Source: Neolewinella litorea
GTDB lineage: Bacteria; Bacteroidota; Bacteroidia; Chitinophagales; Saprospiraceae
Length of the DNA stretch: 64,000 bases
Direction: 5' to 3'
NCBI RefSeq assembly: GCF_004803465.1
Contig: NZ_SRSF01000004.1
Span: 1-64,000, forward strand
Below, piece by piece: positions 2,637 through 52,509 of the stretch (position 1 is the first letter of the stretch; each line of letters starts with the position of its first letter). The position numbers were made by a program, and so were the translations under genes. The notes beneath the pieces are model-generated. The model was given only the letters and a program-made list of their open reading frames with translations, ran no database searches and had not been told where the DNA came from.

Positions 2637-2645
2637 CCGGATTAT

Positions 2646-3443
2646 TTTACCACAGAGGTGCACAGAGGAATTTCACAGAGGTGCACAGATTATGCCCACG
2701 CGGCGCGTGGGCGGTCCGGGGCTTCCGCTAGCCTGGTGAAAGTCAGCAATTTAAAGGAGGACACCAGGAATCCCACTCTGTGATTCCTCTGTGCTGTACT
2801 CTGTGTCCTCTGTGGTCACCTTACCCCGAGCTTCCGAAGGAAGCGAAGCTGAGAGTTCCATAGTTTGCACGCTTCGCGTGTGTAGGTTTTCTCACCACAG
2901 AGGCACACAGAGGGGTTTCACAGAGGTGCACAGATTCTCCACGGTGAATACCAAATAGCAGGAAAGTCGCCCTTACAGCCGGCCGGATGCCGGGCCGCGG
3001 CAGGGCGTATAAAAATACATACTGTATGAGCCGGGACGGAGTCGTGTGGTGTGGCGAAGCACTATTCGGATCCCCGGCAATGAGGCCTCACTTGAGAACG
3101 TGCGAGTTTGTGGATTTTAGCCCTGACGGGGTTTGGCAGCCGATTAAGCCGGATGTAGAAGCTTGATTTTTTGTTTCTTTTTTATCAAGAAAAAAGAAAA
3201 GCACCAGAGCATCAAATGCCCACGCGGCGCGTGGGCGGTCCGGGGTAAGCAGCACGCATCCGAAAAATCCGCGCCCAAATCCGCGCCTCAATCTGCGTGA
3301 TCTGCGGTGAAAAATAGTGGAAGCTTCCGAAGGAGGCGAAACTCAGAGAATACGCTTCGCGTGTGGGGGTTTTTACCGCAGAGGTACGCAGAGGGTTTCA
3401 CAGAGGTGCACAGATTTAGCCCATGCGGAGCGTGGGTGGACCA
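2646..3443. repeat. Mosaic of dispersed intergenic repeats between convergent genes
   Basis: No gene is evident here. Several modules recur in full or part. The first is an ACCACAGAGG.ACACAGAGG type stretch at 2646-2691, 2893-2937 and 3375-3418, with an inverted copy at 2775-2820. The second is a hairpin-forming CCCACGCGGCGCGTGGG module, with 30 bases identical at 2692-2721 and 3215-3244 and a diverged copy at 3419-3443. The third is a CTTCCGAAGGA-GCGAA...ACGCTTCGCGTGTG module at 2829-2881 and 3324-3364. A fourth motif, AATCTGCGTGATCTGCGGTG, lies at 3291-3310. CACAGAGG-type stretches of this kind are known as dispersed intergenic repeats in many unrelated bacteria. The bases from 3444 to 3545 show nothing recognisable. 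Confidence 0.75.
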
Positions 3444-3545: not shown

Positions 3546-5828
3546 CTAAATATTGGTACGCGACTCAATGTTATCCACCGAAATGCCGTAGCGTTCAAAT
3601 TCTTCCGCATGCTCCTGCAGCAGTTCGCCGAAGCGGGGGTTAACGTCGCCATCCGGGTTTTTGGTGATGGCCCCGTACTCGGTGCGGGAGAGCAGGTTGC
3701 TCCACCACAGCATCTGAGTGGCGCGCAGTGGGTCGAGGGCGATCTTGTGGTCCGACTCCGGCCGCAGCACGCCGTCGGGGTGCTCGCCGAAGCGGATGCC
3801 GAGGCTGCAGTACAATACCTCGCCGATGTCGTCGTGCTGGTGTTCGTTGACCCAGCTGTGCAGGAAGGTGGCGTGGTGAATGGCGTAGCAGCACAGCTCC
3901 TTCAGGTTCTCCCAGTCTTCCGTTTTGGCCTGATCGTCGAGGTCCGCGAAGTTCGCCTGCCGGGTGATGGGCGACAGGGCCCTGCACTCGCCGTCGTGGT
4001 GCTCCCGGTGAGTATGTGTCTTGTGCTCAAAGCGGTGCTCGAAGTAGGACATGCACCGGGCCTTGACCTCCTTGTCGTGGCCTTCCAGTCCGTGCAGGTG
4101 ATGGTGGTGGTTGAAGTCGGGCACGCTGTGGGTGACCAGATCCTGCGACATGCGGTAGATCTCGGCCCAGTGCATACGTATTCCCGCCGCGTTCTCGCCC
4201 ATGAATTCCTCGATGTACTGTTCGGTGATTTTCCAGAACAAGGTTTCGGCTTTCGCGTAGTGGTGGTGGTCGTTCACCACGCGCATGGGCTCATAATCCT
4301 TCCAGTTCAGCATACCGAGGGTGTCGCGCACGCGCTGGTGCAATCCCTTTTCCGTCAATGCCGAGGCTCGTGGCAGGTATCCGAACTCCTGGGAAATGAG
4401 CAGGCGGTCGGCGGTGTGGTCGACCAGGGAAACCTCCTTGAGGTGGGGTAGTAGCAGACTGGCGATGGGGTTGAGCCGCAGGTTGCGGAAGGCGGCAATG
4501 GCGTATTGCTCGACGTTGACGTGCGTGCGGGCGAAGTGATCGTCGACCTCGGAGATGAGGCCGCCGACGCACCGCGCCACGCGCTTGGCCTGCATCCACT
4601 TCTTGCCGTCGGTGGGAAAGAAGGTGCGTTCCTGGTAGGGATCGCGGTCAAAGGCACTCAGCGCCCCGGTGAAGGTGATGCTCAGCGGCCGCGGCACGAA
4701 ATCGCCGGGTTGTATCTCAAAGACCATTTCCGTGGTGGGGAAGGCGTAGATGTCGTTGTGGTCGTAGCCCTGGTACCCCCAGTTGACCACGTGGTACAGG
4801 TGGTCGGGGTCGACGTCCTGATAGTGTTCCGCCTTGCGCTTCGTCTGCGCATTGGCGAACGGCTGGAAGGTGAGCGCGTGCATCCCGTTCATCATCCTTT
4901 CCCCGAAGAACATGTCGGAGCGCGTATAGCCAGGCAGCCGCTTTTCGAGGCAGGTAGTGAGGTTGGGGGGGTAGTCGCGCTGTATCTGGTCGATGGTGAG
5001 CGAATCGGGGTGGGCGCGCAGCTGGACGACGTGGCGCAGCTTGATCAGTTCCACGGGAATGAACTGGTCGGTGATCGCATCATCGCGTCCCTCTACGTAC
5101 TTCTCCGGAGCTTCATCCTGGAGGTCGTCGATCTTGACGCGGGGTATGGGGGAGTCGGGGCGGTACGACCAGATGTCGATCTGAATGTCGCGGAGGTTGT
5201 ACTGCATGCCCACGAGGTCGGACTTGGGGATGGGGATCGCCAGGGCAATGCAGTAACAGGGAGACAGTTGGCCGGTCTTGCTGTAGCGGTAGTACTTCTG
5301 CGATACTTCCGCCCGGATCTTCCGCACGGCCACCGAGCGCGCGGTCCGCAGATCGTATTTCAATCTGAAGTTGCCGTCGTGGTCGGAAAAGCCCTTCGCC
5401 AGCCGCCGCCAACTCAGCCACCAGGTGCGGGCCCAGATCTCGACGCGCATGTGGTGGAGGGGCGTGCCCAGGTCTTCCCGGCTGGCGTAGGTGGTGCGCC
5501 CCACGATGACGGAGTCCTTCTCTTTCGGTCCCCATATCTTCGGGTAGCGGGGGAAGAGGTCCATGGCCCACTGGTTGATCTGGTCCCGGACGCGGTCATA
5601 GGTCTCGTAGAGCCAGTCCAGGATCAGGGCGGGGGTGGCCGTGACCATCTTGGAGTAGGCAATATCGAGGTGGTGAAAACCCTTCAGCTTGGGCTTCAGG
5701 ACGCCGCGGTTGCCGGAGGGTACCGGTTTGGTAGACTCGATGCATTCCCGATAGATCCGCTGAACGTTGTCGTAGCCGCCGTACTTGGCGTACGGGTCTT
5801 GGCGGGGGGAGGGAGGTTTGCCGGACAT
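3546..5828 (-). CDS. Lipoxygenase (non-haem iron fatty acid dioxygenase)
   Basis: This 760-residue protein should insert O2 into a polyunsaturated fatty acid to give a hydroperoxide. The lipoxygenase iron ligands are all visible in the expected order: His431 and His436 in DDHFARTHVNVEQYAI (HxxxxH), His657 and Asn661 in FLHSWVNEHQ (HxxxN), and the C-terminal residue Ile760 (ESRTNI), whose carboxylate binds iron in this family. The segment NPIASLLLPHLKEV matches the conserved NPI/HPIYKLLxPH stretch that follows the first His pair. The spacing between His436 and His657 is longer than in soybean lipoxygenase-1 because of a His-rich stretch at about 571-611. No signal peptide or clear PLAT domain is seen. 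It is the last gene of the operon, 6 bp after the catalase-related gene. Substrate and regiospecificity cannot be read from the sequence. Confidence 0.9.
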   Translation of the reverse strand: MSGKPPSPRQDPYAKYGGYDNVQRIYRECIESTKPVPSGNRGVLKPKLKGFHHLDIAYSKMVTATPALILDWLYETYDRVRDQINQWAMDLFPRYPKIWGPKEKDSVIVGRTTYASREDLGTPLHHMRVEIWARTWWLSWRRLAKGFSDHDGNFRLKYDLRTARSVAVRKIRAEVSQKYYRYSKTGQLSPCYCIALAIPIPKSDLVGMQYNLRDIQIDIWSYRPDSPIPRVKIDDLQDEAPEKYVEGRDDAITDQFIPVELIKLRHVVQLRAHPDSLTIDQIQRDYPPNLTTCLEKRLPGYTRSDMFFGERMMNGMHALTFQPFANAQTKRKAEHYQDVDPDHLYHVVNWGYQGYDHNDIYAFPTTEMVFEIQPGDFVPRPLSITFTGALSAFDRDPYQERTFFPTDGKKWMQAKRVARCVGGLISEVDDHFARTHVNVEQYAIAAFRNLRLNPIASLLLPHLKEVSLVDHTADRLLISQEFGYLPRASALTEKGLHQRVRDTLGMLNWKDYEPMRVVNDHHHYAKAETLFWKITEQYIEEFMGENAAGIRMHWAEIYRMSQDLVTHSVPDFNHHHHLHGLEGHDKEVKARCMSYFEHRFEHKTHTHREHHDGECRALSPITRQANFADLDDQAKTEDWENLKELCCYAIHHATFLHSWVNEHQHDDIGEVLYCSLGIRFGEHPDGVLRPESDHKIALDPLRATQMLWWSNLLSRTEYGAITKNPDGDVNPRFGELLQEHAEEFERYGISVDNIESRTNI

Positions 5829-5834
5829 GCTTCC

Positions 5835-6992
5835 TTAATTTTTCTTCTGGACGAGATAGGTGCGGTTGAGGATGCGGGGCGGCTTTTCCCAGTCCGACCA
5901 GTTACGATTATCGTTGTCGGGGATTTCCGGGGGGTAGCCGAAGAGCCGATAGTTCAGCAGCCGGGCCTTGTGCGCTACGGCGGACTGCGCGCGCATGTAG
6001 TTGAGGGAATTGTAGTCGAAGATCGACCGCGCGGGGATGATGCCCAGCGACTCGGGCATATGGGTCAGGCTGAAAGTGGTACGGCAGCTTTCGTTCCAGT
6101 TTAGCGTCTCCGTGATTTCGATTTCGGCCAGGTCGTGCCAGGGGTACAGATCCTCGTTCCAGGGGAGCATATTGTTGAAGATCTCGGGCTTGTCGTCCGT
6201 GGCGGCATTGCGCAGCTGGATTTGCAGCAGGTAGTGGACCGGACCTTTCTTTACCCGGTCGCGGTATTCGTATTTCAGGTAGTTGCGGCCGCGCGGGTTG
6301 TGGGCCGCCACGCGCTGGTTGGGGATCTCACGGGGGTCCGGGTTTTTGAGTTTGCCGGTTTCCTCCGTCTTTGGTTCGCCGGGGATGACGCGGTATTTGG
6401 CGTAACGGGGGATGAAGTCTTCCCCGACAAAGCGGAAGGGTGTTTTGGCGTAATACCGCAGGTCGGAAAAGGACTTCGGATTCTCTCGGATGGCCTCGAT
6501 GGCCCCGTCGAGGCCGTCGGGGTACTTGCGGTAGTATTCTCGGTACTGCACGCCGTACTGCTGCTTGCGCATCCGGGCGAACTGCAGGAAACTGGCCGCC
6601 GACCAGAAGAGGCTCTTTTCCCCGGTGTTCATCTGTAGGTCGAAGGGGCTTTCCAGGTGGTGGTCGGAGAACTTGATGGACATGCTCCGGATGCCCTTCA
6701 CCGCATCGTCCAGGAAGGTAGCGGTGGCGTGCCGTATACGGCAGGGGAAGGTGCGGTCGGGCAGGAAGAACCTGTGGAGGGGGATGTTTGGGTTGTCCAA
6801 GATCCGCACGGTACCCGTGGCGGCGATGCCGTTGTCGTGCGACATGCGCCGCTTGATCATCAGCGAGGCGAATATGGCCACGGCGAGGCCGAACACCTTG
6901 CAGGTCACCCACATGAGGGAGTAGTCCCACGCGTTGCGTATCCAGTCGGCCATGGTCTCGCGAATCAGAGTGGAGTGCTCGGTGTGGCTCAT
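5835..6992 (-). CDS. Catalase-related haemoprotein, allene oxide synthase-like
   Basis: This 385-residue protein looks like the reduced catalase fold used by coral allene oxide synthase and the catalase-related domains of some cyanobacterial lipoxygenase fusions, which rearrange fatty acid hydroperoxides. Visible residues are the distal His88 in CRIRHATATF, Asn122 in LQMNTGEKSLFW, and the proximal haem ligand Tyr348 with Arg344 in ARLLNYRLFGYPPE (RxxxY as in catalases). The length is close to the coral domain and well below typical catalases near 480 residues or more. Residues 22-46 are hydrophobic and could anchor it to membrane. Its ATG overlaps the stop of the kinase-cyclase gene by 4 bp (ATGA), and the lipoxygenase follows after 6 bp. 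The product (allene oxide, leukotriene-type epoxide or other) cannot be predicted. Confidence 0.85.
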   Translation of the reverse strand: MSHTEHSTLIRETMADWIRNAWDYSLMWVTCKVFGLAVAIFASLMIKRRMSHDNGIAATGTVRILDNPNIPLHRFFLPDRTFPCRIRHATATFLDDAVKGIRSMSIKFSDHHLESPFDLQMNTGEKSLFWSAASFLQFARMRKQQYGVQYREYYRKYPDGLDGAIEAIRENPKSFSDLRYYAKTPFRFVGEDFIPRYAKYRVIPGEPKTEETGKLKNPDPREIPNQRVAAHNPRGRNYLKYEYRDRVKKGPVHYLLQIQLRNAATDDKPEIFNNMLPWNEDLYPWHDLAEIEITETLNWNESCRTTFSLTHMPESLGIIPARSIFDYNSLNYMRAQSAVAHKARLLNYRLFGYPPEIPDNDNRNWSDWEKPPRILNRTYLVQKKN

Positions 6993-9900
6993 GTGTGTTG
7001 TATTTGAATTTTCTCCTCGGGTTCCGGCGTGGGGCGGTCTTCGATGAAGTACATATCGATCTGCCCCTTATTCTTGGCGGCGATCTTGCCGCGGTGGATG
7101 AAGGTGTAGCGGCTGCCGATGAGGTCGCGCAGGGCCCCGGAGGCGTTGATCCGGCCGGCCACGCCGCTGGATTCCATGCGCGCGGCGGTATTTACCGTAT
7201 CCCCCCAGATGTCGTAGGCGAATTTCTTGCGGCCCACCACCCCCGCCACCACGGGTCCGGAGTGCAGTCCGATCCGGATCTCGAGGCATTCCTCGCCCCG
7301 GTCGCGGCACCTGCGGTTGTGTTCCTCCATGTAGCGGCGGATGTCCAGGGCGGCGCGCACCATATCCTCGGCGTGGGTGGAGCTTACGGTGGGCAGTCCG
7401 GCCACGCACATGTAGGCGTCGCCGATGGTCTTGATCTTCTCGATGTTGTAGCGGCCGATGATCTCGTCGAAGGCGCAGAAGTGGGCGTCGAGGCTGCGCA
7501 CGAGTTCCTCGGCGTGGAGGGTCTCGGCCAGCCCGGTGAAGCCGCGGAAGTCGGTGAACATCACGGTCACGCTGTCGAACCGCCGCGGCAGGGTGCGGCC
7601 ATTGCGCTTCAGCTCCTCGGCGATCTCCTGGGGCAGGATGTTGAGGAGGAGATCGTCGGACTTCGTCTTCTCCACCGCCAGCTGCTCGGTGCGTTCGCGC
7701 ACCTTTACTTCCAGGTTTTCGTACAGGATAGCGTTGTCGATCGATATGGCGATCTGTCCGGACAGCAGCGCCAGCAGGTCGATCCGCTCAGCGGTGAATA
7801 CGCCCGCCGCGAGCTTGTTTTCCAGGTAGAGGATGCCCACGAACTTGCCGTGGTTGAGGAAGGGCAGGCAGAGGACGGAGCGGGCCCCGCGCTCGAGCAG
7901 GTACGGGTCGAGGGCAAAGCGGTCGTCGTTGGCCGCGTCGTTGATCACCACGGGCTGCCGCGTGCGGTTGACAAACTTGACGACGGATTCGGCGACCAGT
8001 CCGGAGTTTTCCACCGGCAGGGCCTGCAGGACGGTGGTCCTTTCGGCCTCCACCGAGAAAGCGGCCTCGATGAGCAGGCTGCCGTTCCGTTCCAGCAGCA
8101 GTACGCCTTCCTGGGCTCCGGCGTTCTCGATCACGATCGACATGAGGTTGCGGAGCATGTCGCCCAGCTGAATCTGGGCAGAGATGGAGGTGGCGGCCTT
8201 GAGTACCGTCTGAAGGTCCAGCAGGGAGGTATCACCAAAGCTCGTGAGGGCGTGCAGGGTGGTCGTGTTGCCGATGGTGCCGGCGGCCCGCAGTTCCGTG
8301 CCGCGGAGGTGGTCGGGGTAGTGGTTGCGCAGGTCGGCCAGCTTGGCCTCCGCACCCCATTCCCGGTAGGCACTGAAGGCCGACTTGAAGAAGAAGCCCG
8401 CCAGTTGTTCCATGCCCTGTTCCAGGTACGCGCGGCCCGCGAGCTCGTAGGCCAGGGCGGCCTCGTGCACGTACTGCTGCCGGTTGGCTTCCGCGATCGC
8501 CCGGTCGTAGGCCAGTCGGGCCAGGTTGAAGTTGCCCAGTACGCGCTGCCGTTCGGCCTCCATCAGTTCGGCCTTGTGGAGGTAATTTTCGGGGGCCGTG
8601 CGCGACCACTTGCGCATTTTTTTGATGTTGGTCCGGGCCCGGCGCATGATCCGGCGCTGCTCGCGGCGGTCGCTCTGGGGGTAGAGCGCCAGGTTGACAA
8701 GCGCTTCGTAGAAGTGGTGGTTCGGGATCTCGAATTTGGCCAGTACGGCTTCCAGCAACCGGCGGGCGTTTGCGGCGTGCTCGGCCGCGGGGCGGTAGTC
8801 GCGGAAGTGGCAGGCCAGGATGAGCTTGTTGAAGTAGATGAAGAACAGCCCGGTCTTGTCGTCGCGCTCTGTGTTCTGTTCCATCATTTTCGCCTCGTCG
8901 TAGGCGTCGCCGGTCAGGATGAGGGGGTTGGCCGACTTCTTCATGAAGTTGCGCATGCCCTGGCGGTAGACCTCGTTGTAGTTGTAGTTGGTCTCTTGCT
9001 TCAGCTGCAGGTAATTGCGGCTGTAGGCGGCGGTCTCTTCCTCCACCCGCTGCAGGTTGCGGCCGATGAGGTAGGAGTGGATGCAGTAGATGTTGGAATT
9101 GATGCAGGCAAACTCGATGGCGCCGGTCTCCAGTCCGATGTGGTAGCTCTCCTGAAGGGGGCGCAGCGTATTGCGCACGTGCTCGTTCCAGTTGATGATC
9201 AGGGCGTAGACCGGGCAGTAAATCTGGGTGGTCCAGGCGCGTTCCTCGAACTTGTCCATGAGGCGCAGGCCGAGCTTGCCGTAGCGGTAGCCCGACTCCA
9301 TCTGTTCCAGCACCCCGCACATGATGACCCCGTAGGTGGCGAAGGCGAAGGCGCTCAGGGCGGTGTTGCCGTACTTCAGCGACATCCGGCACATGCGGAA
9401 GATGACCAGGGGGAAGAGGTTGGGGCGGGCCCAGTAGGAGCTGGAGGCGATGTCGGCGATGATGCGCATGGCCGCGATCTTGCGCGGCTCGTTCATGATC
9501 GGGAGGTCCTCCAGGGTATGGATATCCTTGCCGTAGAAGCGCAACTTGGTGTAGAGCAGGTCGGACATAACGTTGGGCAGACCCGGCTGCCCGGGGAACT
9601 TCTCACCCAGTTGCTCGAGTACTTCCAGACCGGTGTCGATGGCCTCGTTCAGCTGGTTCTTGGCCTTGAAGGAGAGGATGCGGATCTCGTAGGCCTTGAC
9701 CTTATCGAGCAATTCGGTGGCCTCGTTGAGGATGGTGGCCACCATCCCGTCCATGGTGGCGAATTCCCCGCTCAGGTAATTGCATTCCGCCGCTTCGGTG
9801 TAGAGGTCGCGGCTCAACTCATAGTGACTTTTCCAGCTGCCCTGCGCCGGCAGCAGGTCGATGCCGGCCTGCAGGTACTCGGCACCGCGGCGGAAGGCGG

Positions 9901-12115
9901 AGGCTTGCTTGGCGCGGCGGCCGGCGCGCAGGTTCAGTTCGGCCAGGCGCAGCCGTTCTTCCCCATCGTTGATGGCCGGCAGTCCGCTGTTGAGCTGGGT
10001 GACGATGTCGAACACCCGCTCGTCGAGATGATCGGGGGGCGTATCGGCCAGCAGGAGGCGGCCGATGCGTGCGTGTACCGCGGCCTTGTCCGCATCCGGT
10101 ATGAGGGAGTAGGCCGCCTGCTGGATGCGGTCGTGGGCAAACTTGTACGCCTTGCCGAAGGGCAGGAGCAGGCCTTCCCGCAGGGCGGGGAAAAGGATCT
10201 CTTCCACTTTCTCCGCGTCCACGGATTCGATCACGCAGAGGGTCTCCGGGTCGAATTCATTGCCGATGCTGGCGCCCACCTTCAGCAGGTCCTGCGCGGG
10301 GGTAGGCAGCCGCATGACCTTGGCCGCCATCAGTTCGACCACGTTGTCGGTGATGTTACGCTGGCGCACAAGCGCGAGGTCCCAGGTCCACCGCCGGCTT
10401 TCCGTGTCGAACCACAGCAGCTCTTCCTCGTAGAGCGAATAGAGGAACTGGGTGGTGAAGAAGGCGTTGCCCCGGGTCTTTTCGTACACCAGGGTGGTGA
10501 GCGGCCGCGTGGCGGCGGGCTGGATGCCCGTGGCTTCCGAGATCAGGTTGTTGACGTCGTCCACGCTGAGGTTGCCGATCTCGATGGTCGTGAGCTTGCC
10601 GCCGGCGGATTCGATCTCGCGGACGGTCTGCAGGAAGGGGTGGGAGGCGTCGACCTCATTGTCGCGATAGGCGCCGATGCACAGCAGGTGATTGTTTTCC
10701 AGGTCCGTCATCAGCAGCCGCAGGAGTTCCAGGGAGGCGGAATCGGCCCATTGCAGATCGTCGATGAAGAGCACGATGGGGTGCCGGGCCGTAGAAATGG
10801 AGCGGACGAACTTGCGGAAGACGTAGTTGAAGCGGTTCTGGGACTCCGAACCGGCCAGTTCGGGTACTTCGCGCTGCGGACCGATGATGTGCTCGAGGTG
10901 GGGGATGACCTCCGTCAGTACCCGTCCCTCGGTGCCCACGGCCGCCTGAATCTTTTCGCGGAAGCTGTCTACGGTCTCCTTCTTTTCGGTCAGCACCAGG
11001 TCGACGAAGCGGCCCAGCGCCTGGAGCAGGGCGAAGTAGGGTTCCGCCCGCTGGAACTGGTTGAACTTCCCCTCGACGAAGTAGCCCCGGGACTGGGTGA
11101 TGGGCTTGTGGACCTCATGTACCAGGGCCGATTTGCCGGTACCCGAATAGCCCGCCACGAGCACGGTTTCCAGTCCGCCGCGGCTCACCCGCTCAAAGGC
11201 CGCCAACAGCCGGGCCGTCTCTTCCTCACGGCCGTAGAGCCTCTCCACGATCCGGAATCGGCCGGAAAAATCCTGTTCGCCCAGGATGAAGGGCTGGATC
11301 ACCCCGGTATCCTCGTAGGCCTCGAGACAGTGCTGCAGATCGGCCTCCAGGCCCCGGGCCGACTGGTAGCGGTTCTCGGCGTTCTTGGCCAGGAGGCGGT
11401 CGATGATGAGGGCTACGGACTCCGGCACCTGCGGATTGAGCTTGCGGATGTCGGGAGGGCGCTGGGCGATGTGACAGTGGACCAACTCCAGGGGTTCCTT
11501 GGCCCGGAACGGACAGTGGCCGGTGAGCATCTCGTAGAACACCACCCCCAGGGAATACAGGTCGGTGCGGTAGTCGACCGCGCGGTTCATCCGGCCGGTC
11601 TGCTCCGGGGAGATGTAGTGCAGGTTGCCTTCCAGCACCTCGGGGTTGCCCAGGTTCTGCTCCTTCAGGTCGATCCGCGAAGAGATGCCAAAGTCGATGA
11701 TCTTAACTTCCGCCCGCGGCAGGTCGAGGAGGATATTGTAGGGACTGATATCGCGATGGATGATGCCGGCGGAGTGGACTTCGGCCAGTGCCCCGGCCAT
11801 GGCTACGGCGGCGCGCAGGAAGCCGCCGATGTCGTGCTTGCGGTCCTTGAACACTTCGGCCAGGGTGGGGGCGTCGACCCATTCGAGGTAGAGGTAATGG
11901 CGGTTCTGCGACCGGGTGCGGCCCAGTACGCGGCGGATGGCATCGCCCTCCAGGTTCTTGGTGATCTCGAATTCGCGGTAAAACTTGGCAATCTCGCGGG
12001 GGGTGGGAAACTCGTAGTTCAGGGCCTTGCGCACCACGGGGCCGCCCCATTCGCTGTCTTCCAGGTAATGGATTTTGGTGCGTACGCTTTCATAAACCAG
12101 TTGTTCCGCCTTCAT
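6989..12115 (-). CDS. Kinase-like / AAA ATPase / GAF / adenylate cyclase signalling protein
   Basis: This 1708-residue multidomain protein heads the oxylipin operon. Residues 1-265 are a Ser/Thr kinase-like domain with Lys30, HRD at 120-122 and DFG at 141-143. The glycine-rich loop is unrecognisable, and the catalytic-loop lysine is replaced by Ser124 (HRDISPYN). Residues 294-560 are a predicted ATPase with Walker A GYSGTGKS at 322-329 and Walker B IVLFIDD near 447-453. A long helical, TPR-like region follows, then a GAF domain (about 1320-1470), a coiled coil and a class III cyclase domain (1515-1700). The cyclase has metal Asp1522 and Asp1566, adenine-selecting Lys1562 and Asp1635, and Asn1642/Arg1646, so it is predicted to make cAMP. 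No transmembrane segment is obvious. The layout resembles the large kinase-ATPase-GAF histidine kinases of cyanobacteria, with a cyclase output instead. Confidence 0.9.
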   Translation of the reverse strand: MKAEQLVYESVRTKIHYLEDSEWGGPVVRKALNYEFPTPREIAKFYREFEITKNLEGDAIRRVLGRTRSQNRHYLYLEWVDAPTLAEVFKDRKHDIGGFLRAAVAMAGALAEVHSAGIIHRDISPYNILLDLPRAEVKIIDFGISSRIDLKEQNLGNPEVLEGNLHYISPEQTGRMNRAVDYRTDLYSLGVVFYEMLTGHCPFRAKEPLELVHCHIAQRPPDIRKLNPQVPESVALIIDRLLAKNAENRYQSARGLEADLQHCLEAYEDTGVIQPFILGEQDFSGRFRIVERLYGREEETARLLAAFERVSRGGLETVLVAGYSGTGKSALVHEVHKPITQSRGYFVEGKFNQFQRAEPYFALLQALGRFVDLVLTEKKETVDSFREKIQAAVGTEGRVLTEVIPHLEHIIGPQREVPELAGSESQNRFNYVFRKFVRSISTARHPIVLFIDDLQWADSASLELLRLLMTDLENNHLLCIGAYRDNEVDASHPFLQTVREIESAGGKLTTIEIGNLSVDDVNNLISEATGIQPAATRPLTTLVYEKTRGNAFFTTQFLYSLYEEELLWFDTESRRWTWDLALVRQRNITDNVVELMAAKVMRLPTPAQDLLKVGASIGNEFDPETLCVIESVDAEKVEEILFPALREGLLLPFGKAYKFAHDRIQQAAYSLIPDADKAAVHARIGRLLLADTPPDHLDERVFDIVTQLNSGLPAINDGEERLRLAELNLRAGRRAKQASAFRRGAEYLQAGIDLLPAQGSWKSHYELSRDLYTEAAECNYLSGEFATMDGMVATILNEATELLDKVKAYEIRILSFKAKNQLNEAIDTGLEVLEQLGEKFPGQPGLPNVMSDLLYTKLRFYGKDIHTLEDLPIMNEPRKIAAMRIIADIASSSYWARPNLFPLVIFRMCRMSLKYGNTALSAFAFATYGVIMCGVLEQMESGYRYGKLGLRLMDKFEERAWTTQIYCPVYALIINWNEHVRNTLRPLQESYHIGLETGAIEFACINSNIYCIHSYLIGRNLQRVEEETAAYSRNYLQLKQETNYNYNEVYRQGMRNFMKKSANPLILTGDAYDEAKMMEQNTERDDKTGLFFIYFNKLILACHFRDYRPAAEHAANARRLLEAVLAKFEIPNHHFYEALVNLALYPQSDRREQRRIMRRARTNIKKMRKWSRTAPENYLHKAELMEAERQRVLGNFNLARLAYDRAIAEANRQQYVHEAALAYELAGRAYLEQGMEQLAGFFFKSAFSAYREWGAEAKLADLRNHYPDHLRGTELRAAGTIGNTTTLHALTSFGDTSLLDLQTVLKAATSISAQIQLGDMLRNLMSIVIENAGAQEGVLLLERNGSLLIEAAFSVEAERTTVLQALPVENSGLVAESVVKFVNRTRQPVVINDAANDDRFALDPYLLERGARSVLCLPFLNHGKFVGILYLENKLAAGVFTAERIDLLALLSGQIAISIDNAILYENLEVKVRERTEQLAVEKTKSDDLLLNILPQEIAEELKRNGRTLPRRFDSVTVMFTDFRGFTGLAETLHAEELVRSLDAHFCAFDEIIGRYNIEKIKTIGDAYMCVAGLPTVSSTHAEDMVRAALDIRRYMEEHNRRCRDRGEECLEIRIGLHSGPVVAGVVGRKKFAYDIWGDTVNTAARMESSGVAGRINASGALRDLIGSRYTFIHRGKIAAKNKGQIDMYFIEDRPTPEPEEKIQIQHT

Positions 12116-40709: not shown

Positions 40710-42032
40710 CTAGTCTTGTGCTCCGACGGGCTGACGGCCGATGCTGTCGTAATGGAATCCGGCCTCCTGCATCCGGGCGGTGTCGTAGAGGTTACGCCCG
40801 TCGAATATGATCGGGCTGCTGAGCAGGTTCTTCATCTTGTCGAAGTCGGGCGTGCGGAAGACGCTCCACTCGGTCACGATGGCCAGGGCGTCGGCTCCTT
40901 CCAGGGCCTCGTACTGATCGGCACAGTAGGTCAGCTTGTCGCCGTAAAGGGCGCGTACGTGCTCGGTGGCCTCCGGATCGAAGGTGCGCACCTTGGCACC
41001 GGCTTCCAGCAGGCGGTCGATGGTGTAGAGGGCCGGGGCTTCCCGGATATCGTCGGTATTGGGCTTAAACGCCAGTCCCCAGAGGGCGATGGTGCGGTTC
41101 GAAAGGTCGTCGCCGAAGTAGGCCTCGATCTTGTCGGCAATGCGGAAGCGCTGCTTGGTGTTGACGTCCATGACCGCGTTCAGGATGCGGAAACTGTAGT
41201 CGTGCTGACCGGCCGTGTGGGCCAGTGCCTGCACGTCCTTGGGGAAGCAAGATCCGCCGTAGCCGACCCCGGGAAACAGGAAGCGTTTGCCGATGCGGGA
41301 GTCGCTGCCCATGCCGCGGCGCACGGCGTCTACGTCGGCGCCGGCCTTTTCACAAAGGTTGGCGATTTCGTTCATGAAGGAAATCCGGGTGGCGAGGTAG
41401 GAGTTGGCGGCGTACTTGGTCATCTCGGCCGAACGGAGGTCCATGAAGATGATCGGGTTGCCGCTGCGTACGAAGGGCTCGTAGAGGCGGCGCAGTTTGT
41501 CCTCAGCCTGCTGGCTGTCGGTGCCGATTACCACGCGGTCGGGCTTGAGGAAGTCGTCCACGGCTACCCCTTCCCGCAGGAATTCCGGGTTGGAGACCAC
41601 GTCGAAGAGGCTTTCGTCGAGGTTTTCGGCCAGGGCGGCGTGTACCTTCTCGGCCGTACCTACGGGCACGGTACTCTTGTCGATGACGATGGTGTACTTC
41701 GTGATCAGTTTGGAGAGGTCCTTGGCAACGCCCAGGATGTAACGGAGGTCGGCGGACCCGTCCTCGCCCGGAGGAGTGGGCAGGGCCAGGAATATGATAT
41801 CGGAAGCGTCAACGGCTTCCTTCAGGTCGGTGGTGAATTTGAGGCGGCCCTGCCGGTGGTTGCGCTCGAAGAGCACGTCCAGGTCGGGTTCGTAGATCGG
41901 CACTTCGCCGTTCTGCATGCGTTTCACTTTGGCGGCGTCGATATCGACGCACACTACTTCGTTGCCGGTTTCGGCAAAACAGGTTCCGGTAACGAGTCCA
42001 ACGTATCCGGTCCCAACTACTGCAATTTTCAT
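40710..42032 (-). CDS. ugd: UDP-glucose 6-dehydrogenase
   Basis: This 440-residue enzyme oxidises UDP-glucose to UDP-glucuronate. It has the N-terminal NAD motif MKIAVVGTGYVGLVTGTCFAE, STVPVGTAEKV, EFLREGVAVDDF and the catalytic cysteine region FPGVGYGGSCFPKDVQAL. The UDP-binding ALWGLAFKPNTDDIREAPA follows. Length is normal. The product is the substrate for the UXS-type decarboxylase encoded upstream (42154) and both probably feed the exopolysaccharide cluster. The fcl gene follows almost immediately. Confidence 0.96.
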   Translation of the reverse strand: MKIAVVGTGYVGLVTGTCFAETGNEVVCVDIDAAKVKRMQNGEVPIYEPDLDVLFERNHRQGRLKFTTDLKEAVDASDIIFLALPTPPGEDGSADLRYILGVAKDLSKLITKYTIVIDKSTVPVGTAEKVHAALAENLDESLFDVVSNPEFLREGVAVDDFLKPDRVVIGTDSQQAEDKLRRLYEPFVRSGNPIIFMDLRSAEMTKYAANSYLATRISFMNEIANLCEKAGADVDAVRRGMGSDSRIGKRFLFPGVGYGGSCFPKDVQALAHTAGQHDYSFRILNAVMDVNTKQRFRIADKIEAYFGDDLSNRTIALWGLAFKPNTDDIREAPALYTIDRLLEAGAKVRTFDPEATEHVRALYGDKLTYCADQYEALEGADALAIVTEWSVFRTPDFDKMKNLLSSPIIFDGRNLYDTARMQEAGFHYDSIGRQPVGAQD

Positions 42033-42079
42033 AGTGTAGGGAGTAAAATGTGAGTTAAGTGGGGTTAAATGGAATAATA

Positions 42080-42100
42080 GGGCGGCGGCGCGCGGGTGCC
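42080..42100 (-). repeat. Dispersed 21-bp GC-rich motif, exact copy
   Basis: Third identical copy, in the 121-bp gap between the UXS and ugd genes. Confidence 0.65.
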
Positions 42101-42153
42101 ATGCTCCATCAAAGAGCCGGGCCGAGAGGGACTAAACCCGTAGCCGCCGGAGG

Positions 42154-43113
42154 TTATTTCTTTTGGGCGTCGGCCTGGGCTACGGTTTCCAGGAAGTACG
42201 GCAGGGTGCGCCGCAGTCCTTCTTCGCGGCTGACCTTCGGCGACCAGCCTAGCAATTTCTTGGCCAGGGTGATGTCGGGCTGCCGCACCTTCGGGTCGTC
42301 GGTGGGCAGGGGGCGGCGGTCGAGATAGGCGTCGGGGTTACCTACGAGTTCCATGATCTCCTCGGCAAACTGCATGATGGTGGTCTCGTCCTGGTTGCCG
42401 ATGTTGACCGGCTGGGCGTAGTCGCTCATCAACAGGCGGTAGATGCCCTCCACGAGGTCGTCAACGTAGCAGAAAGAGCGCGTCTGGCTGCCGTCGCCGA
42501 AGACGGTGAGCCCCTGGCCGCGGATGGCCTGGCTGAAGAAGGCGGGCAGTACGCGGCCGTCGTTGAGGCGCATGCGGGGTCCGTAGGTATTAAAGATGCG
42601 CACGATACGCGTCTCGAGTCCGTGGAAGGTGTGGTAAGCCATCGTCATGGCCTCCTGGAAGCGCTTGGCCTCGTCGTAGACGCCACGGGGGCCGACGGGG
42701 TTGACGTTGCCCCAGTAGGTCTCCTGCTGGGGGTGCTCGAGTGGGTCACCGTAGACCTCGCTGGTGGAGGCGATCAGCATGCGGGCCTGCTTGGCCTTGG
42801 CCAGTCCGAGGAGGTTGTGGGTACCCAGGCTGCCCACCTTCAGGGTTTGAATGGGCATCTTTAGGTAGTCAATCGGGCTGGCCGGACTGGCGAAGTGCAG
42901 GATATAGTCGAGGTCACCGGGTACGTGGACGAACTTACTGACGTCGTGGTAGTAAAATTCGAATTCCTTCAGCGGCATCAGATGGGCGATATTATCCATC
43001 GAGCCGGTCAGGAGGTTGTCCATACCCACCACCCGGAATCCCTCCGCAATGAATCGATCCGAAAGGTGGGATCCGAGGAATCCGGCGGCACCGGTAATTA
43101 AGACTGTACGCAT
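42154..43113 (-). CDS. UDP-glucuronate decarboxylase (UDP-xylose synthase type)
   Basis: This 319-residue SDR enzyme should convert UDP-glucuronate to UDP-xylose. Features are the NAD motif [55 protein letters not shown], the catalytic [14 protein letters not shown] (Tyr-x3-Lys), [10 protein letters not shown], and [21 protein letters not shown]. The ASPxSPxxY and YGDP motifs are those of the UXS group rather than general epimerases. It lies upstream of ugd, 121 bp away, on the same strand. Confidence 0.92.
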
Positions 43114-43205
43114 ACTGGGGGGTTCTTGAAAATAAGCGGCAAACGAGCCGGAAAGTTTTTCTTTAACAGCTTACCAACCGGAAAAGTACATCCCTAAAAG
43201 CAAAA

Positions 43206-43230
43206 CCAGGGGAGCGTAAGGCTCCCCTGG
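43206..43230 (-). terminator. Intrinsic terminator of the DUF1800/DUF1501 unit
   Basis: CCAGGGGAGC and GCTCCCCTGG form a perfect 10-bp stem with a 5-base loop, followed on the minus strand by TTTTGCTTTT. It is about 64 bases past the DUF1501 stop. Confidence 0.85.
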
Positions 43231-43293
43231 TAACAGTAACATGACAAGTGTGCGTCTTTTCGGGTGTGTCCTTTAGTCTAGAAAAGAGGGTTG

Positions 43294-44856
43294 TTATTCG
43301 AAGACTACCTTCCGGGAAATGGTTCCGCCGGTTTCCGTAGCCAGGCGCAGGGAGTAAGTCCCCGAGGAAAGGCGGCTGGGCCGGGAGAAGAGGAGGTAGT
43401 CGGATTTGTCGTTGACGGCGATCTCGTTGGCCAGGACCAGGCGACCGCGACCGTCGAAGAGTGAGTAGCGGAGCCGGTTATTGGCCGGGCTGCCGATGTT
43501 GAGGTACACCTCCTTACGTGCCGGGTTGGGGTAGGGCTCGCCGAAGGTCCATCCTTCGCTGGTGCTGTCGGTGCCGTCGCTGACCGCTTCGTTACACTTC
43601 CCGGCGAGGGGCAGGTATTTGAAGTCCTGATGCAGCATATTCTTAACGCTGAGGGCCGGAACGTCGAACCAGTCGACAAGGATGGATCCGTACACGTCGC
43701 GGAAGTCAAACTGCATGGGTACACCTTCACCCTGGCTTACGTCCTTGTCGACCTCCACGTTATCGCCGAGAATTCCGCCGTTGACGCAGCTTCCGAAGAG
43801 GAACATGGGACCGGCCGTGCCGTGGTCGGTACCGAAGCTGGCGTTGGGCCGGATGCGGCGACCGAACTCACTGAAGGTCATTCCCATCACGCGGTCGTCC
43901 TGATTTTGGGCTACCATGTCGCGCTGGAAGACGTCAATGGCTTCGCTGACCTGACGGAGCAGGTCGGCGTGGGCACCGATGGTGGTGTTGGCCTCCACCT
44001 GCTTGGCGTGCAGGTCGAATCCGCCGAGGTATACGGTATATACTTTGGTCTTCAGGCCGCCACTGATCATACGGGCTACCTTTTGCAGCTGAACCGCCAG
44101 GGGGTTGGAGTTGCCGGGGTAGGGTACGGCATTCTTGCCTTTGGCAGCCGCTTCCTTGATCACGTTGTTGTAATCGTTGGTCTGCTGCATGGTGGTCTGG
44201 ATGAACTTCAACTCCCCGCCGTAGCGGTCGCCGGAGTACATGTCGGCCATGGCGCCGGAAAGCTCGGTCGTATTCAGGGGGTCATTGACCGTCTGGCTGA
44301 AGTTGATCTTCACCCCTTCACAGGTGGGGTGGGCAACGTTTCCGATCGAGATCGCCGGGGGGTGGGGCTGGGTCTGGTTGGGGTAACCCGCGGGGTAGCC
44401 GGGCAGCTGGGAATCCAGGTACCGACCCACCCAGCCGGTGTTCAGGAACTCATCCGATTTGGAAGCCGAAGTCCAGATGTCGGTGGAGCGGAAGTGGCTG
44501 CGGTTCTGGTTGGGATAGCCGGCGCTCTGGATGATCTTGAGGCGACCGTCCTTGAACATGTTGGACATGCCCTGCATGCTGGGGTGCAGCGCCACCGTAT
44601 CGGTGATCTTGTGCGTCAAATCCGCTTTCAGGTAGAGGCGGGGCCGGACTGCGGTGATACCATCATACTGATCCAGGGGGATGACGGTATTGAGGCCGTC
44701 GTTGCCGCCGAACAGGTGAACGATCACGAGTACCCGATCGCTGTCGGAATTGATAAGGGAAGTGAACCGGGAGCTACTGGCTTTCATGCCGGGAAGGGGC
44801 ATGAAGGTCGGAATGGTAAGAGCAGCCGCGGTCTGGAGGAAATTTCTACGTTTCAT
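43294..44856 (-). CDS. DUF1501 protein with type IX secretion sorting domain
   Basis: This 520-residue protein begins with a basic signal-like stretch (MKRRNFLQTAAALTIPTF) of Tat or Sec type. The body is the DUF1501 domain, related to the sulfatase/alkaline phosphatase superfamily: VHLFGGNDGLNTVIPLDQY, SHFRSTDIWTSA, GGFDLHAKQ, MTFSEFGRRIRPN and FGTDHGTAGPMFLFG. The last 75 residues are a C-terminal sorting domain (PYPNPARKEVYLNIG ... GTYSLRLATE ... KVVFE) that marks export by the type IX system. The enzymatic role is unknown. It follows the DUF1800 gene by 13 bp, the usual pairing. Confidence 0.92.
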   Translation of the reverse strand: MKRRNFLQTAAALTIPTFMPLPGMKASSSRFTSLINSDSDRVLVIVHLFGGNDGLNTVIPLDQYDGITAVRPRLYLKADLTHKITDTVALHPSMQGMSNMFKDGRLKIIQSAGYPNQNRSHFRSTDIWTSASKSDEFLNTGWVGRYLDSQLPGYPAGYPNQTQPHPPAISIGNVAHPTCEGVKINFSQTVNDPLNTTELSGAMADMYSGDRYGGELKFIQTTMQQTNDYNNVIKEAAAKGKNAVPYPGNSNPLAVQLQKVARMISGGLKTKVYTVYLGGFDLHAKQVEANTTIGAHADLLRQVSEAIDVFQRDMVAQNQDDRVMGMTFSEFGRRIRPNASFGTDHGTAGPMFLFGSCVNGGILGDNVEVDKDVSQGEGVPMQFDFRDVYGSILVDWFDVPALSVKNMLHQDFKYLPLAGKCNEAVSDGTDSTSEGWTFGEPYPNPARKEVYLNIGSPANNRLRYSLFDGRGRLVLANEIAVNDKSDYLLFSRPSRLSSGTYSLRLATETGGTISRKVVFE

Positions 44857-44869
44857 GGTAATTAGGGTT

Positions 44870-46525
44870 TTACTGGAGTTGGAATTCGCCTAAAGAGAAT
44901 AGGTCCACAAAGAATAAAGCCATACGACCTTCGATCGGCTTCGAGTAATTGGAGTTACCCGGATTGGAGAGAAAATCGCTGCAACTCATGGTCCATTCCT
45001 TGTCTTCCAGTCCACCCATGATGGTTTCCTTCAGTGCAGCAGTCTGCTGTGCGGAAATCGGACGAGGCAAAAAGATGAGGACAATCTCATCGATAACTGA
45101 ATTAATGTCAAGCGGATTCGTCAAAGCCTTGAGAAACGAATAGTAGTCGATCGTCAGCCGCGTACCGTTGATGTGGAAATCACCGTCGATGATGGCGGTT
45201 GAGATCTGCACACGGCGCTGCATCAGCGCGGGGCTGATCCAGTGGCGGTAGTACTGGGGCGAATCGTAGTAGGCCTTCCAGCCGGCAATGGTGGGGGGGT
45301 CCAGGAATTCCATTCCCAGATCGTAGATGTAATCGCAGTACTTGCCGCCCAGCTCGTAGCGCATGCGCAGATCCTTCATCGGACCGTCGTGCCAGAACTC
45401 CTTGAAGGGGCGAACGATGCTGCACAGGAAGTCGTGCGGGTTCTTGATGATCGCACCCGTATTGGCGGCCTCGAAGAAGTGCTCCGAGGAGAGCAGCTGC
45501 TTCAGTACCGGCTTGATCTCGTAGTTGTTGTTGCGCAGGGTCTGGGCCAGGGGCTTGATGATCTGATCTTCAACCGATGAGTTGATGTCGTGAAAAACGA
45601 AGTAGCGGTACAGTTCGCGGCAGAAGTGAAGGGCGGTGGCCTCCTGCTTCAGCAGAATATCGATGACCACTTTGTATTCGTCCGCTCCGGCGTTCTTGAT
45701 AACGACGTTGCCGAGCCGGTTGCTGAGTTGCTTGTCACCAGTGTCGTGGTCGTTTACGTCGAAGTGGCTGTCTACCGGAGTATCATCCTTGGCAAAGCGA
45801 TAGTTGTTGATCTTCCAACCCGTGAGGGCACGGGCCAGGGCCGCGACATCCTTCTCGGTGTAGGTGGTGTAGTCTCCGTCGCCTACCTGAGGGCCTTTGC
45901 CCAGCGTGAAGAGCTCCATGAGCTCACGGGCGTAGTTCTCGTTGGGGTTCGCCTTGCTATTGACGTCGCCATTCAGACACCGCAGCATCCTGGGGTCCAC
46001 CGTCACCTTTTGCAGCATCCTGCGCAGGTTACCGGTAGCCTCCTCCTGGTACAGGCGGATATGCTTGTACATGGCCCGCGGGTCAGAGTTCGGGGCGGAA
46101 ATCGAGAAGTAGTTGAGCCAGAAAAAGGACATCCGCTCCTGAATATTGGAGGGGCGATCCGCCTGGACCATATTGTTGTAGTACCATCCCTTCAGGGAGT
46201 GGGCACGGTAGAGGTTGGTGCCGCGGCAACTTTTATCAACCCAGGTTTCTCCCATCTGCAGGTACTCGTCGTCATCATTGCGATACTTGACGGGCGGCGG
46301 CGGGACGGCTATGGGGCTGAGGAGGAGATCGATGGTCCGGCTAAGGCCATCGCGCTGGGCCCGGTTGATCTCATCGATGCGTGGGCCGAGAACCGTGCGT
46401 CGAAGCAGGTGGGCTGCTTTTTGGCGGTCCCAGGCTCCGGAGAAGGTGGTTAAAGGGGCGATAACCGTAGAAAACCGTTGACTAGACTGGTAGGACAAAT
46501 CACAGGTATTTAAAATGTAGAACAA
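44870..46525 (-). CDS. DUF1800 family protein
   Basis: This 551-residue protein has the DUF1800 signature. It has an N-terminal AAHLLRRTVLGPRIDEIN, MSFFWLNYFSI, NENYARELMELFTLGKG, DVAALARALTGWKI, LKQLLSSEHFFEA and the late PPTIAGWKAYYDSPQYYRHW. No cleavable signal is obvious with the ATG at 46525. A good promoter 110 bases upstream supports this start. Its molecular function is unknown, but it almost always accompanies a DUF1501 protein, as here, and the pair is thought to act at the cell envelope. It is the first gene of an independent two-gene unit. Confidence 0.9.
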   Translation of the reverse strand: MFYILNTCDLSYQSSQRFSTVIAPLTTFSGAWDRQKAAHLLRRTVLGPRIDEINRAQRDGLSRTIDLLLSPIAVPPPPVKYRNDDDEYLQMGETWVDKSCRGTNLYRAHSLKGWYYNNMVQADRPSNIQERMSFFWLNYFSISAPNSDPRAMYKHIRLYQEEATGNLRRMLQKVTVDPRMLRCLNGDVNSKANPNENYARELMELFTLGKGPQVGDGDYTTYTEKDVAALARALTGWKINNYRFAKDDTPVDSHFDVNDHDTGDKQLSNRLGNVVIKNAGADEYKVVIDILLKQEATALHFCRELYRYFVFHDINSSVEDQIIKPLAQTLRNNNYEIKPVLKQLLSSEHFFEAANTGAIIKNPHDFLCSIVRPFKEFWHDGPMKDLRMRYELGGKYCDYIYDLGMEFLDPPTIAGWKAYYDSPQYYRHWISPALMQRRVQISTAIIDGDFHINGTRLTIDYYSFLKALTNPLDINSVIDEIVLIFLPRPISAQQTAALKETIMGGLEDKEWTMSCSDFLSNPGNSNYSKPIEGRMALFFVDLFSLGEFQLQ

Positions 46526-46850
46526 TCAGGTGAGGCCTATACGGCTTGCGTCGTACAGATCTAATCAAGAGAGTTATGCAAATTGGAATACCGTGTGACT
46601 ACAAAAAAGTCTGATGCTCAGGTGTCTAAGCGGCAGCAAAACTACAGGTGCCTACAATAATTTGCAAACCGAAGGCGGGCAAATTTGTGAAAGCTCCTGT
46701 TCGCTTACACGGGAAAGCTCATTTCCACCTTCCGGGCAACGGCCTGAATGTTAGGCTATTGTTGAGTCTCCGGGGTGGGTAAGTGTCGATTAGTTAACTG
46801 CGGAGCCCCGAAATTTATTTTTCAAATCGACAAACATTTTTTTGCGGGGG
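46526..46850. other. Intergenic region upstream of the DUF1800 gene
   Basis: No gene is seen. It contains the promoter at 46637-46668. The AT-rich 40 bases next to the gmd stop include a possible weak hairpin (GCCCCG / CGGGGG arms with a long loop) that might terminate gmd transcripts. Confidence 0.5.
46637..46668 (-). promoter_or_regulatory. Bacteroidetes-type promoter of the DUF1800/DUF1501 unit
   Basis: On the minus strand, TTTG (46668-46665) lies 20 bases upstream of TAGTTTTG (46644-46637), matching TTTG / TAnnTTTG with normal spacing. Transcription should start near 46630, giving a leader of about 105 bases. Confidence 0.7.
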
Positions 46851-47966: not shown

Positions 47967-47968
47967 GG

Positions 47969-49120: not shown

Positions 49121-49138
49121 AGGGGAAGTCTCTAAAAA

Positions 49139-49179
49139 GCATCACGGTACCACGTGCGGGAAACGTGATACCGTGATGC
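49139..49179 (-). terminator. Terminator or attenuator inside the exopolysaccharide cluster
   Basis: GCATCACGGTA and TACCGTGATGC form an 11-bp stem, extended by CACGT/ACGTG pairs, and on the minus strand it is followed by TTTTTAGAGAC. It separates the phosphoglycosyltransferase gene from the GT4 and gmd genes. Confidence 0.8.
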
Positions 49180-49202
49180 GGCGGATATGGGATAAGGGAC
49201 GC

Positions 49203-51853: not shown

Positions 51854-51929
51854 GATATATAGCCCGCCGGTATCAACCCGGGGGTTTAGAGACACCCGCT
51901 TTTCAGGGCGGGCTAACTGGGATTTACTT

Positions 51930-52508: not shown

Positions 52509-52509
52509 A

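Follow-up and report, generated by a model that had tools for sequence, protein, structure and literature searches.

In the first 64,000 nucleotides of Neolewinella litorea contig NZ_SRSF01000004.1 (the whole stretch analyzed, hereafter the window), three coupled genes on the minus strand encode a giant protein with kinase, ATPase, GAF and cyclase domains, here called the sensor, a catalase-related protein of the coral allene oxide synthase (AOS) family, and a lipoxygenase (LOX). Distantly related bacteria also keep the trio side by side, a pattern that suggests a system for making and responding to oxidized lipids. A conserved lipid-oxidation signaling module is the best explanation of the set and a reasonably probable one. 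The original prediction, made from the sequence alone, had joined a LOX, a coral-AOS-type protein and a kinase/ATPase/GAF/cyclase protein in one coupled unit, and this was borne out by open reading frames (ORFs), domains and alignments. The three ORFs, the overlap and the gap were all found as it had described them.

6989..12115, minus strand: giant sensor gene, 1708 amino acids (aa) (ORF, Pfam)
6989..6992, minus strand: 4-bp ATGA overlap between the sensor stop and the catalase-related start
5835..6992, minus strand: catalase-related gene, 385 aa, coral AOS family, without the proximal heme Tyr (ORF, alignment, model)
5829..5834, minus strand: 6-bp gap between the catalase-related and LOX genes
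3546..5828, minus strand: LOX gene, 760 aa (ORF, Pfam, alignment to Cyanothece LOX 5ek8, model)

Catalase-related loci were obtained from a scan of genome contigs (14 loci) and from a whole-genome search of 395 Bacteroidota (6 genomes). L021 was set aside, L022 was dropped because it comes from the same genome as L010, and 18 loci were aligned, window included. A full-length sensor homolog lies in the same gene run and on the same strand in 16/18 of them, where it adjoins the catalase-related gene directly or with the LOX gene in between. L018, whose contig ends inside the LOX gene, was scored as a sensor miss. L020 (Planctomicrobium) has a different kinase-AAA protein and a different LOX (PF00305, 208 bits). 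A LOX of the window's family is present in 16/18 loci, the exceptions being L017 and L020. The gene order is sensor-catalase-LOX in 4 Lewinellaceae, the window and L010 among them, sensor-LOX-catalase in 7 loci and, with an inserted receiver-kinase gene, in 2 more, LOX-catalase-sensor in 2 loci, and sensor-catalase in L017. The sensor gene comes first in 14/16 modules with a sensor; gene starts in L012, L013, L014 and L017 are ORF or homology limits.

The original prediction had proposed searching Bacteroidetes genomes for three-gene linkage. Among the same 395 Bacteroidota genomes, 6 have the catalase-related gene, 7 have LOX, and 6 have a sensor core with 50% identity or more. All three coincide in the same 6/395 genomes, with an order that varies between loci (catalase/LOX overlap, hypergeometric P ~1.4e-12, kinship of the genomes ignored). 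In the seventh LOX genome, G076, a LOX gene on the other strand is followed by a gene for a 472-aa protein and then by a kinase/cyclase sensor (L066, 6240-15263). The 472-aa protein matches 15-LOX structures (E=1e-7) and occupies the place of the catalase-related one; the LOX profile misses some LOX genes, this one for example. The LOX gene starts or ends within ~2 kb of a sensor gene in 7/7 LOX genomes. Elsewhere the catalase-related gene was found in 1/289 Alphaproteobacteria genomes, the centre genome itself, and is therefore rare there, and in 2/246 genomes of the phylum of G407, namely G407 itself and G887. Plasmid records gave no LOX match and only weak catalase matches in 5 Sinorhizobium records.

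Trees of the catalase-related protein, LOX and sensor were built from 15 rows each, without L017, L018 and L020. Four well-supported groups recur in all three trees: the 4 Lewinellaceae, Indibacter plus Algoriphagus, 3 Rhodobacterales, and L025 plus L026. A larger group (L016, L019, L024 and the Rhodobacterales) is seen only with LOX and sensor; the catalase tree does not resolve it. Strain names are attached to the Neolewinella, Lewinella, Indibacter and Algoriphagus loci. A quick tree built from 37 sensors, which is without L009, L018 and L020, places the 15 LOX/catalase sensors it includes in a single clade (SH-aLRT 100).

Two of the exceptional loci have further features. At 9599-11113 of L017 an N-terminal LOX piece (LOX aa 102-218) is joined in frame to the catalase-related protein, through a deletion or an assembly fault. 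Positions 1-11053 of L020 hold a LOX, a kinase-AAA protein and a Tyr-less catalase-related gene on one strand; on the opposite strand lie another LOX-like piece and a gene for an 827-aa protein whose C-terminal domain is catalase-like. L020 is perhaps an independent assembly of the trio. In L093 (S. fredii pNGR234a, 4901-10954) an interrupted catalase-related gene adjoins genes for a di-heme peroxidase and a patatin-like phospholipase.

The lipoxygenase call was right. The solved structure nearest to the 760-aa protein is Cyanothece LOX 5ek8 (E=3e-93), and the five iron ligands named beforehand, H431, H436, H657, N661 and the C-terminal I760, align with those of 5ek8 and are each invariant in 16/16 aligned LOX relatives. 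The Pfam Lipoxygenase match (PF00305) is local only, at 26.9 bits against a cut-off of 23.6. Structure prediction and comparison had been proposed for both enzymes and were run. The AlphaFold2 model of the LOX (mean pLDDT 80, pTM 0.84) matches 5ek8 best, over the whole catalytic domain (E=5.9e-41, TM 0.74/0.84), followed by other LOXs at 4e-14 and weaker. Among the NCBIfam matches shown for the three proteins, none was above cut-off. By sequence and model the protein is a member of the lipoxygenase family, with predicted dioxygenase activity.

4536-4538, minus strand: LOX iron ligand H431 (5ek8 alignment)
4521-4523, minus strand: LOX iron ligand H436 (5ek8 alignment)
3858-3860, minus strand: LOX iron ligand H657 (5ek8 alignment)
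3846-3848, minus strand: LOX iron ligand N661 (5ek8 alignment)
3549..3551, minus strand: LOX iron ligand Ile760, C-terminal (5ek8 alignment)

The 385-aa protein has no Pfam match. Compared with solved structures it matches coral AOS 1u5u (E=1.4e-59), and the coral AOS structures 3dy5 and 1u5u are the best Foldseek matches of its model (E<1e-27, TM ~0.7), with 34% identity to the coral catalase-fold partner in the structural alignment. The model (mean pLDDT 74, pTM 0.74) is heme-free, and residues 43-52 are of low confidence. It also matches fungal chanoclavine synthase 9jdc (rank 32, E=3.9e-12), a possible pointer to non-classical use of the fold. Coral AOS has the heme residues R64, R102 and R360, the distal residues T66, H67 and N137, and the proximal Y353 (PMC5617202). 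In the alignment to coral AOS, T66-H67 corresponds to S51-H52, R102 to R87 and N137 to N122. Residues S51, H52, R87, N122, F135, R334 and R344 are invariant in 18/18 rows. The distal His and Asn of coral AOS are thereby kept throughout, and the distal Thr66 is replaced throughout by Ser51, which retains the hydroxyl.

The proximal site is different. Coral R349xxxY353 aligns to R334xxxA338; the final aligned stretch is EDYNSIGELRVAV in coral AOS and FDYNSLNYMRAQSA in the window protein, and the residue directly after EDYNSIGELRVAV is Y353 in the numbering of PMC5617202. Position 338 is Ala in 2, Gly in 2, Glu in 11, Asp in 2 and Val in 1 of the aligned relatives, with Tyr in 0/18. This alignment is without G887 and without L021, which has an interrupted frame; one L021 frame also shows no Tyr at the site. 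Two further relatives, not among the 18, keep the Tyr in register: the planctomycete G887 (LDYRSLAYARAFVY) and a Sinorhizobium fredii gene piece (DDYASLGHARAIVY). The Tyr-bearing G887 gene lies near a LOX gene of another type, and its 12.8-kb contig showed no sensor relative.

6861..6980, minus strand: N-terminal helix, aa 5-44 in the model, a hydrophobic stretch directly ahead of the distal site (model, hydropathy)
6837..6845, minus strand: M50-S51-H52, corresponding to coral A65-T66-H67, distal site, low model confidence (alignment, model)
5979..5993, minus strand: R334-A338, corresponding to coral R349-Y353, Tyr absent (alignment, model)

The mini-catalase of the original prediction thus keeps its family and its N122, the equivalent of coral N137, and loses its other heme residues. 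His88 is the equivalent of coral H103, and the distal His is H52 instead. Arg344/Tyr348 had been taken as the proximal site, and Y348 is kept in only 15/18 rows. Helix 329-351 is unbroken in the model, and therefore no loop moves Y348 into the heme site. On alignment to coral AOS and on conservation, His88 and Arg344/Tyr348 were rejected as heme residues. Nor is the suggested AOS-like activity supported. In coral AOS, K60 and K107 bind the substrate carboxylate, and residue 150 is Leu in AOS and Phe in hydroperoxide lyase (PMC5617202). By offset-based mapping, K60 corresponds to the variable residue 45, K107 to Thr, Ser or Pro at position 92, and residue 150 to the invariant F135, which matches F150 of the lyase and not AOS. 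The 385-aa protein is, by sequence and modeled fold, of the coral AOS family with the defining catalytic residue missing, and AOS activity is therefore not to be assumed. It may arrange its heme differently or serve a non-classical role. All 18/18 rows have a hydrophobic stretch ahead of the distal site (best 19-residue hydropathy 1.16 to 2.56), and the N-terminal helix is a possible membrane anchor.

Pfam identified the four domains expected in the 1708-aa sensor, namely a protein kinase, AAA_16, GAF and Guanylate_cyc; its long middle part is TPR-like by weak matches only.

11357..12055, minus strand: Ser/Thr protein kinase domain, aa 21-253, with K-HRD-DFG-SPE motifs (Pfam, motif alignment)
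10679..11242, minus strand: AAA_16 ATPase domain, aa 292-479, with Walker A/B (Pfam, motif alignment)
7739..8167, minus strand: GAF domain, aa 1317-1459 (Pfam)
7040..7585, minus strand: class III adenylate cyclase domain, aa 1511-1692, with metal Asp, K...D pair and N/R (Pfam, alignment)

The residues of a class III adenylate cyclase are present in FTDF, EKIKTIGD and YDIWGDTVNTAAR, which we take to hold the two metal Asp, the Lys/Asp substrate pair and the Asn/Arg. Kinase motifs were found in 16/16 aligned module sensors. The cyclase residues are kept in 12/16 and absent in 4/16 (L019, L024, L025 and L026). All three cyclase-less sensors that were scanned (L019, L024, L026) end in HisKA/HATPase, and in L019 and L024 a receiver-histidine-kinase gene is inserted between the sensor and LOX genes. 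A link between oxylipins and cAMP had been proposed. The tie between sensor and enzymes stands (16/18 loci), and cAMP is not the conserved link because the output is a cyclase in 12/16 sensors and not in the other 4; cAMP as an essential link is further weakened by the histidine kinase ends.

Sensor matches occur in 54/395 Bacteroidota genomes, and 22 loci were judged full length, meaning kinase-AAA-GAF proteins with ~70% or more of the core aligned. This census is without G273 (kinase domain missing), G381 (contig end), G122, G393 and shorter or weaker matches. An oxidative enzyme gene lies directly next to the sensor or 1-2 genes away in 18/22 loci. These are LOX plus catalase in 6, LOX plus a LOX-like protein in 1, amine-oxidase-type FAD enzymes in 3, an FAD_binding_4/ALO oxidase in 1, the RPE65/carotenoid-oxygenase family in 3, and the MPAB/Lcp oxygenase family in 4. 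Two of the 4 MPAB/Lcp loci also have a methyltransferase and one a Pyr4-like terpene cyclase. For the other four loci, G194 C46, G076 C1, G275 C12 and G283 C118, none of these oxidative families was found among the 5 neighbor proteins scanned. In 7 genomes chosen for having such neighbors, so that the figures are ascertained, all 3 genomes with RPE65 have a single copy, which lies beside the sensor, and all 5 with MPAB have a single copy, which in 4 is near the sensor. On the 37-sensor tree the neighbor types require 10 changes (minimum 9, shuffled mean 20.9); individual groups fit less neatly, with 3 changes for MPAB and 2 for RPE65, and the deeper joins are uncertain because of long branches.

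The RPE65/carotenoid-oxygenase-family genes lie directly upstream of the sensors in L071, L074 and L082, with ~106, 0 and 3 bases between. MPAB/Lcp-family genes are upstream in L072, L073, L075 and L080; L072 and L073 are the loci with a methyltransferase, and L080 has the Pyr4-like terpene cyclase and a bestrophin-like gene. Near the sensors of L067, L068, L087, L069, L070 and L097 lie genes for FAD amine-oxidase-type or FAD-linked oxidases. A second protein, of ~305-320 aa, is common to L067, L068 and L087 and has no Pfam match in L067.

Each part of the window unit belongs to a known family, and catalase-LOX pairing and GAF dual kinases are already on record (PMC11719350, PMC2176072). One close parallel is the coral AOS-LOX and hydroperoxide lyase-LOX fusions (Plexaura homomalla 1u5u/3dy5; Capnella imbricata), in which the same two protein families act on one substrate chain. 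The likeness lies in the catalase-fold partner and its distal His and Asn. Unlike the coral fusions, the window genes are separate, Thr66 is Ser51, Tyr353 is lost, Lys60 and Lys107 are not conserved, Phe occupies position 150 as it does in the lyase, and a third, signaling gene is linked. The fungal catalase Fg-cat reportedly uses the product of a neighboring LOX gene as its substrate. Catalase-LOX fusions are known from Anabaena and Acaryochloris, and Fg-cat acts on fatty acid hydroperoxides (PMC11719350). The cyanobacterial fusions, likened here by description only, share the catalase-LOX pairing with the window, and the excerpt of PMC11719350 names no kinase/cyclase partner for them. Cyanothece LOX 5ek8 (9R-LOX, PCC 8801) shares the aligned ligands and is only 28% identical in the structural alignment.

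For the sensor, the HstK/cbSTKIII dual kinases of cyanobacteria share an N-terminal Ser/Thr kinase, a GAF domain and then an output domain. The window sensor differs in its linkage to lipid-oxidizing enzymes and in its cyclase output, which prevails in the module; it has the Ser/Thr kinase and GAF of that class without its histidine kinase end, which the three scanned module relatives do have. The cyanobacterial Ser/Thr kinase Tery_2857 has GAF and a cyclase (PMC2176072), and among the matches listed cyanobacterial plasmid proteins are ~36-41% identical over the AAA/middle core. In oxylipin-dependent quorum sensing (ODS) of Pseudomonas aeruginosa, oxylipin-making genes adjoin the oxylipin receptor gene (PMC6377657). 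According to that excerpt, ODS uses diol synthases and a LysR-type regulator, whereas the window has a LOX, a catalase-fold protein and a kinase/cyclase, and the likeness is one of gene arrangement only. Among the hits listed from open-licence full text, judged mainly by titles and abstract starts, we found no description of LOX and catalase-related genes tied to such a sensor, nor of the wider enzyme-sensor pattern. No description of a Tyr-less catalase branch was found among the same hits, where Tyr loss as such was not searched for.

In the favored signaling module, the LOX would add O2 to a polyunsaturated acyl chain to give a lipid hydroperoxide, a step strongly indicated by its family and ligands. 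Next, the hydroperoxide would be taken up by the catalase-fold partner, which the N-terminal helix probably attaches to the membrane. With its distal Ser-His-Asn pocket retained and the heme-ligating Tyr lost, this protein may either have an unusual heme site, acting like a hydroperoxide lyase or isomerase, or bind the lipid and hand it over. The kinase-AAA-GAF protein would sense the product or the state of the enzymes and pass this to an exchangeable output, presumably cAMP in the window module and a histidine phosphorelay in some relatives. Genetic linkage and the exchange of enzyme and output are seen directly in the genomes; the chemistry and the direction of signaling we infer. The oxidative enzymes and the kinase-AAA-GAF part of the sensor are constant, the enzyme class varies across the family and the output varies within the LOX branch, a pattern that fits a maker-and-sensor pair as in P. 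aeruginosa oxylipin quorum sensing. Tentatively, and with somewhat less than an even chance, this can be widened: giant Bacteroidota kinase-AAA-GAF proteins may be receptors for oxidized lipids or terpenoids from a nearby enzyme (LOX, RPE65-type, MPAB/Lcp or FAD oxidase), with interchangeable outputs, in a broad class of bacterial lipid-hormone systems; in the LOX branch the coral-AOS-like protein would be a carrier or a new type of enzyme that lost its heme ligand.

Several observations weigh against the module reading. In L017, which keeps the sensor and the catalase-related gene, no more than an N-terminal piece of the LOX is left. The module loci assigned to groups outside Bacteroidota (L012, L014, L015, L018, L019 and L020; Rhodobacterales, Ignavibacteria and planctomycetes) are metagenome-assembled contigs in which mis-binning could have occurred, and both the LOX tree and the sensor tree join the Rhodobacterales to Bacteroidota rows. 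The PfaA polyunsaturated fatty acid (PUFA) synthase was above cut-off in 0/13 genomes searched, and self-supply of PUFA by PfaA is unsupported. FA_desaturase gave one match in the window's genome and none in G022. These results leave outside PUFA (e.g. algal), a desaturase product or another polyene as candidate substrates; the substrate, the product and the putative lipid sensing are likewise what we infer. Related kinases were found in 184 plasmid records, and outside Bacteroidota the rule of oxidative neighbors is weak. An FAD/NAD(P)-type oxidoreductase gene lies within 2 genes upstream in 4/12 plasmid loci (Rufibacter, Flammeovirga, Nostoc UHCC 0302 and Azospirillum), two of which are Bacteroidota, and in Flammeovirga the match extends over just 39% of the core. 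Calothrix and Aulosira plasmids have short-chain dehydrogenase genes beside the sensor, adjoined in Calothrix by a monooxygenase gene, and Microvirga and Oscillatoria plasmids have dehydrogenase-type genes one or a few genes away. In the remaining four of the 12 loci no oxidoreductase-type gene is next door to the sensor.

The flow of information could also be reversed. The sensor would then perceive energy, redox state or a GAF ligand and control both enzymes by Ser/Thr phosphorylation or cAMP, and the oxidized lipid would be an effector (an allelochemical, or membrane remodeling) rather than a sensed signal. A kinase controlling the enzymes fits the linkage, the kinase motifs are universal among the aligned sensors, the sensor gene usually comes first with the enzymes behind it, and expression of Anabaena dual kinases depends on nitrogen source or iron (PMC2176072). 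However, the neighboring enzyme class shifts among LOX, RPE65, MPAB and FAD oxidases as the sensor type stays constant, which suits a synthase-receptor pair at least equally well, and we regard the reversed direction as rather unlikely. Mere chance, with giant kinases being common and happening to adjoin LOX genes, would gain from their numbers on plasmids. It is opposed by the coincidence of the trio in the same 6 Bacteroidota genomes, by the single clade of module sensors, and by a second full-length sensor homolog in only 2/11 module genomes searched whole (G406, with one internal stop, and G275). Its probability is negligible, and the co-occurrence and linkage data rule it out.

A further alternative concerns the catalase-related protein only and is compatible with the others. 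It may be an active heme AOS or hydroperoxide lyase that uses Y348 or a residue from elsewhere as axial ligand, and the operon would be a two-enzyme oxylipin pathway as in corals. The invariant S51, H52, R87, N122, R334 and R344, the 1u5u/3dy5 fold match, the conserved LOX partner and the lyase-like F135 (F150 in PMC5617202) speak for it. Against these stand the loss of Y348 in 3/18 rows, the assortment of residues at position 338, the continuous helix 329-351, which does not bring Y348 to the site, and a heme-free model with a low-confidence distal region. We consider active heme chemistry a serious possibility that falls somewhat short of an even chance. The module could instead defend against lipid-peroxide stress by detoxifying hydroperoxides, with the sensor reporting oxidative damage. 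The catalase fold is in keeping with this, as is the frequent role of GAF and kinase sensors in stress responses. Against it, hydroperoxides are what a LOX produces, not what it removes, and the heme ligand of catalases is missing from the 385-aa protein; a defense role is improbable.

Two other regions of the window were recorded. The intergenic region past the LOX gene (2642-3442) contains several direct repeats of the CACAGAGG and GCCCACGCGGCGCGTGGGC types in copies of 47-50 nt. Positions 40713-58150 of the minus strand hold sugar-nucleotide and glycosyltransferase genes with interspersed DUF1501/DUF1800 genes (10 proteins scanned), likely an exopolysaccharide cluster.

Oxylipins are regarded mainly as eukaryotic hormones. 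Bacterial LOX genes are rare and occur in <0.5% of sequenced species (PMC6612559). A LOX tied to a dedicated sensor would give bacterial LOX a testable physiological role. The 18/22 sensor loci near an oxidative enzyme may offer a route to predict ligands for a large family of orphan sensors, and the Tyr-less catalase fold would be a natural test of what this fold can do without its heme ligand.

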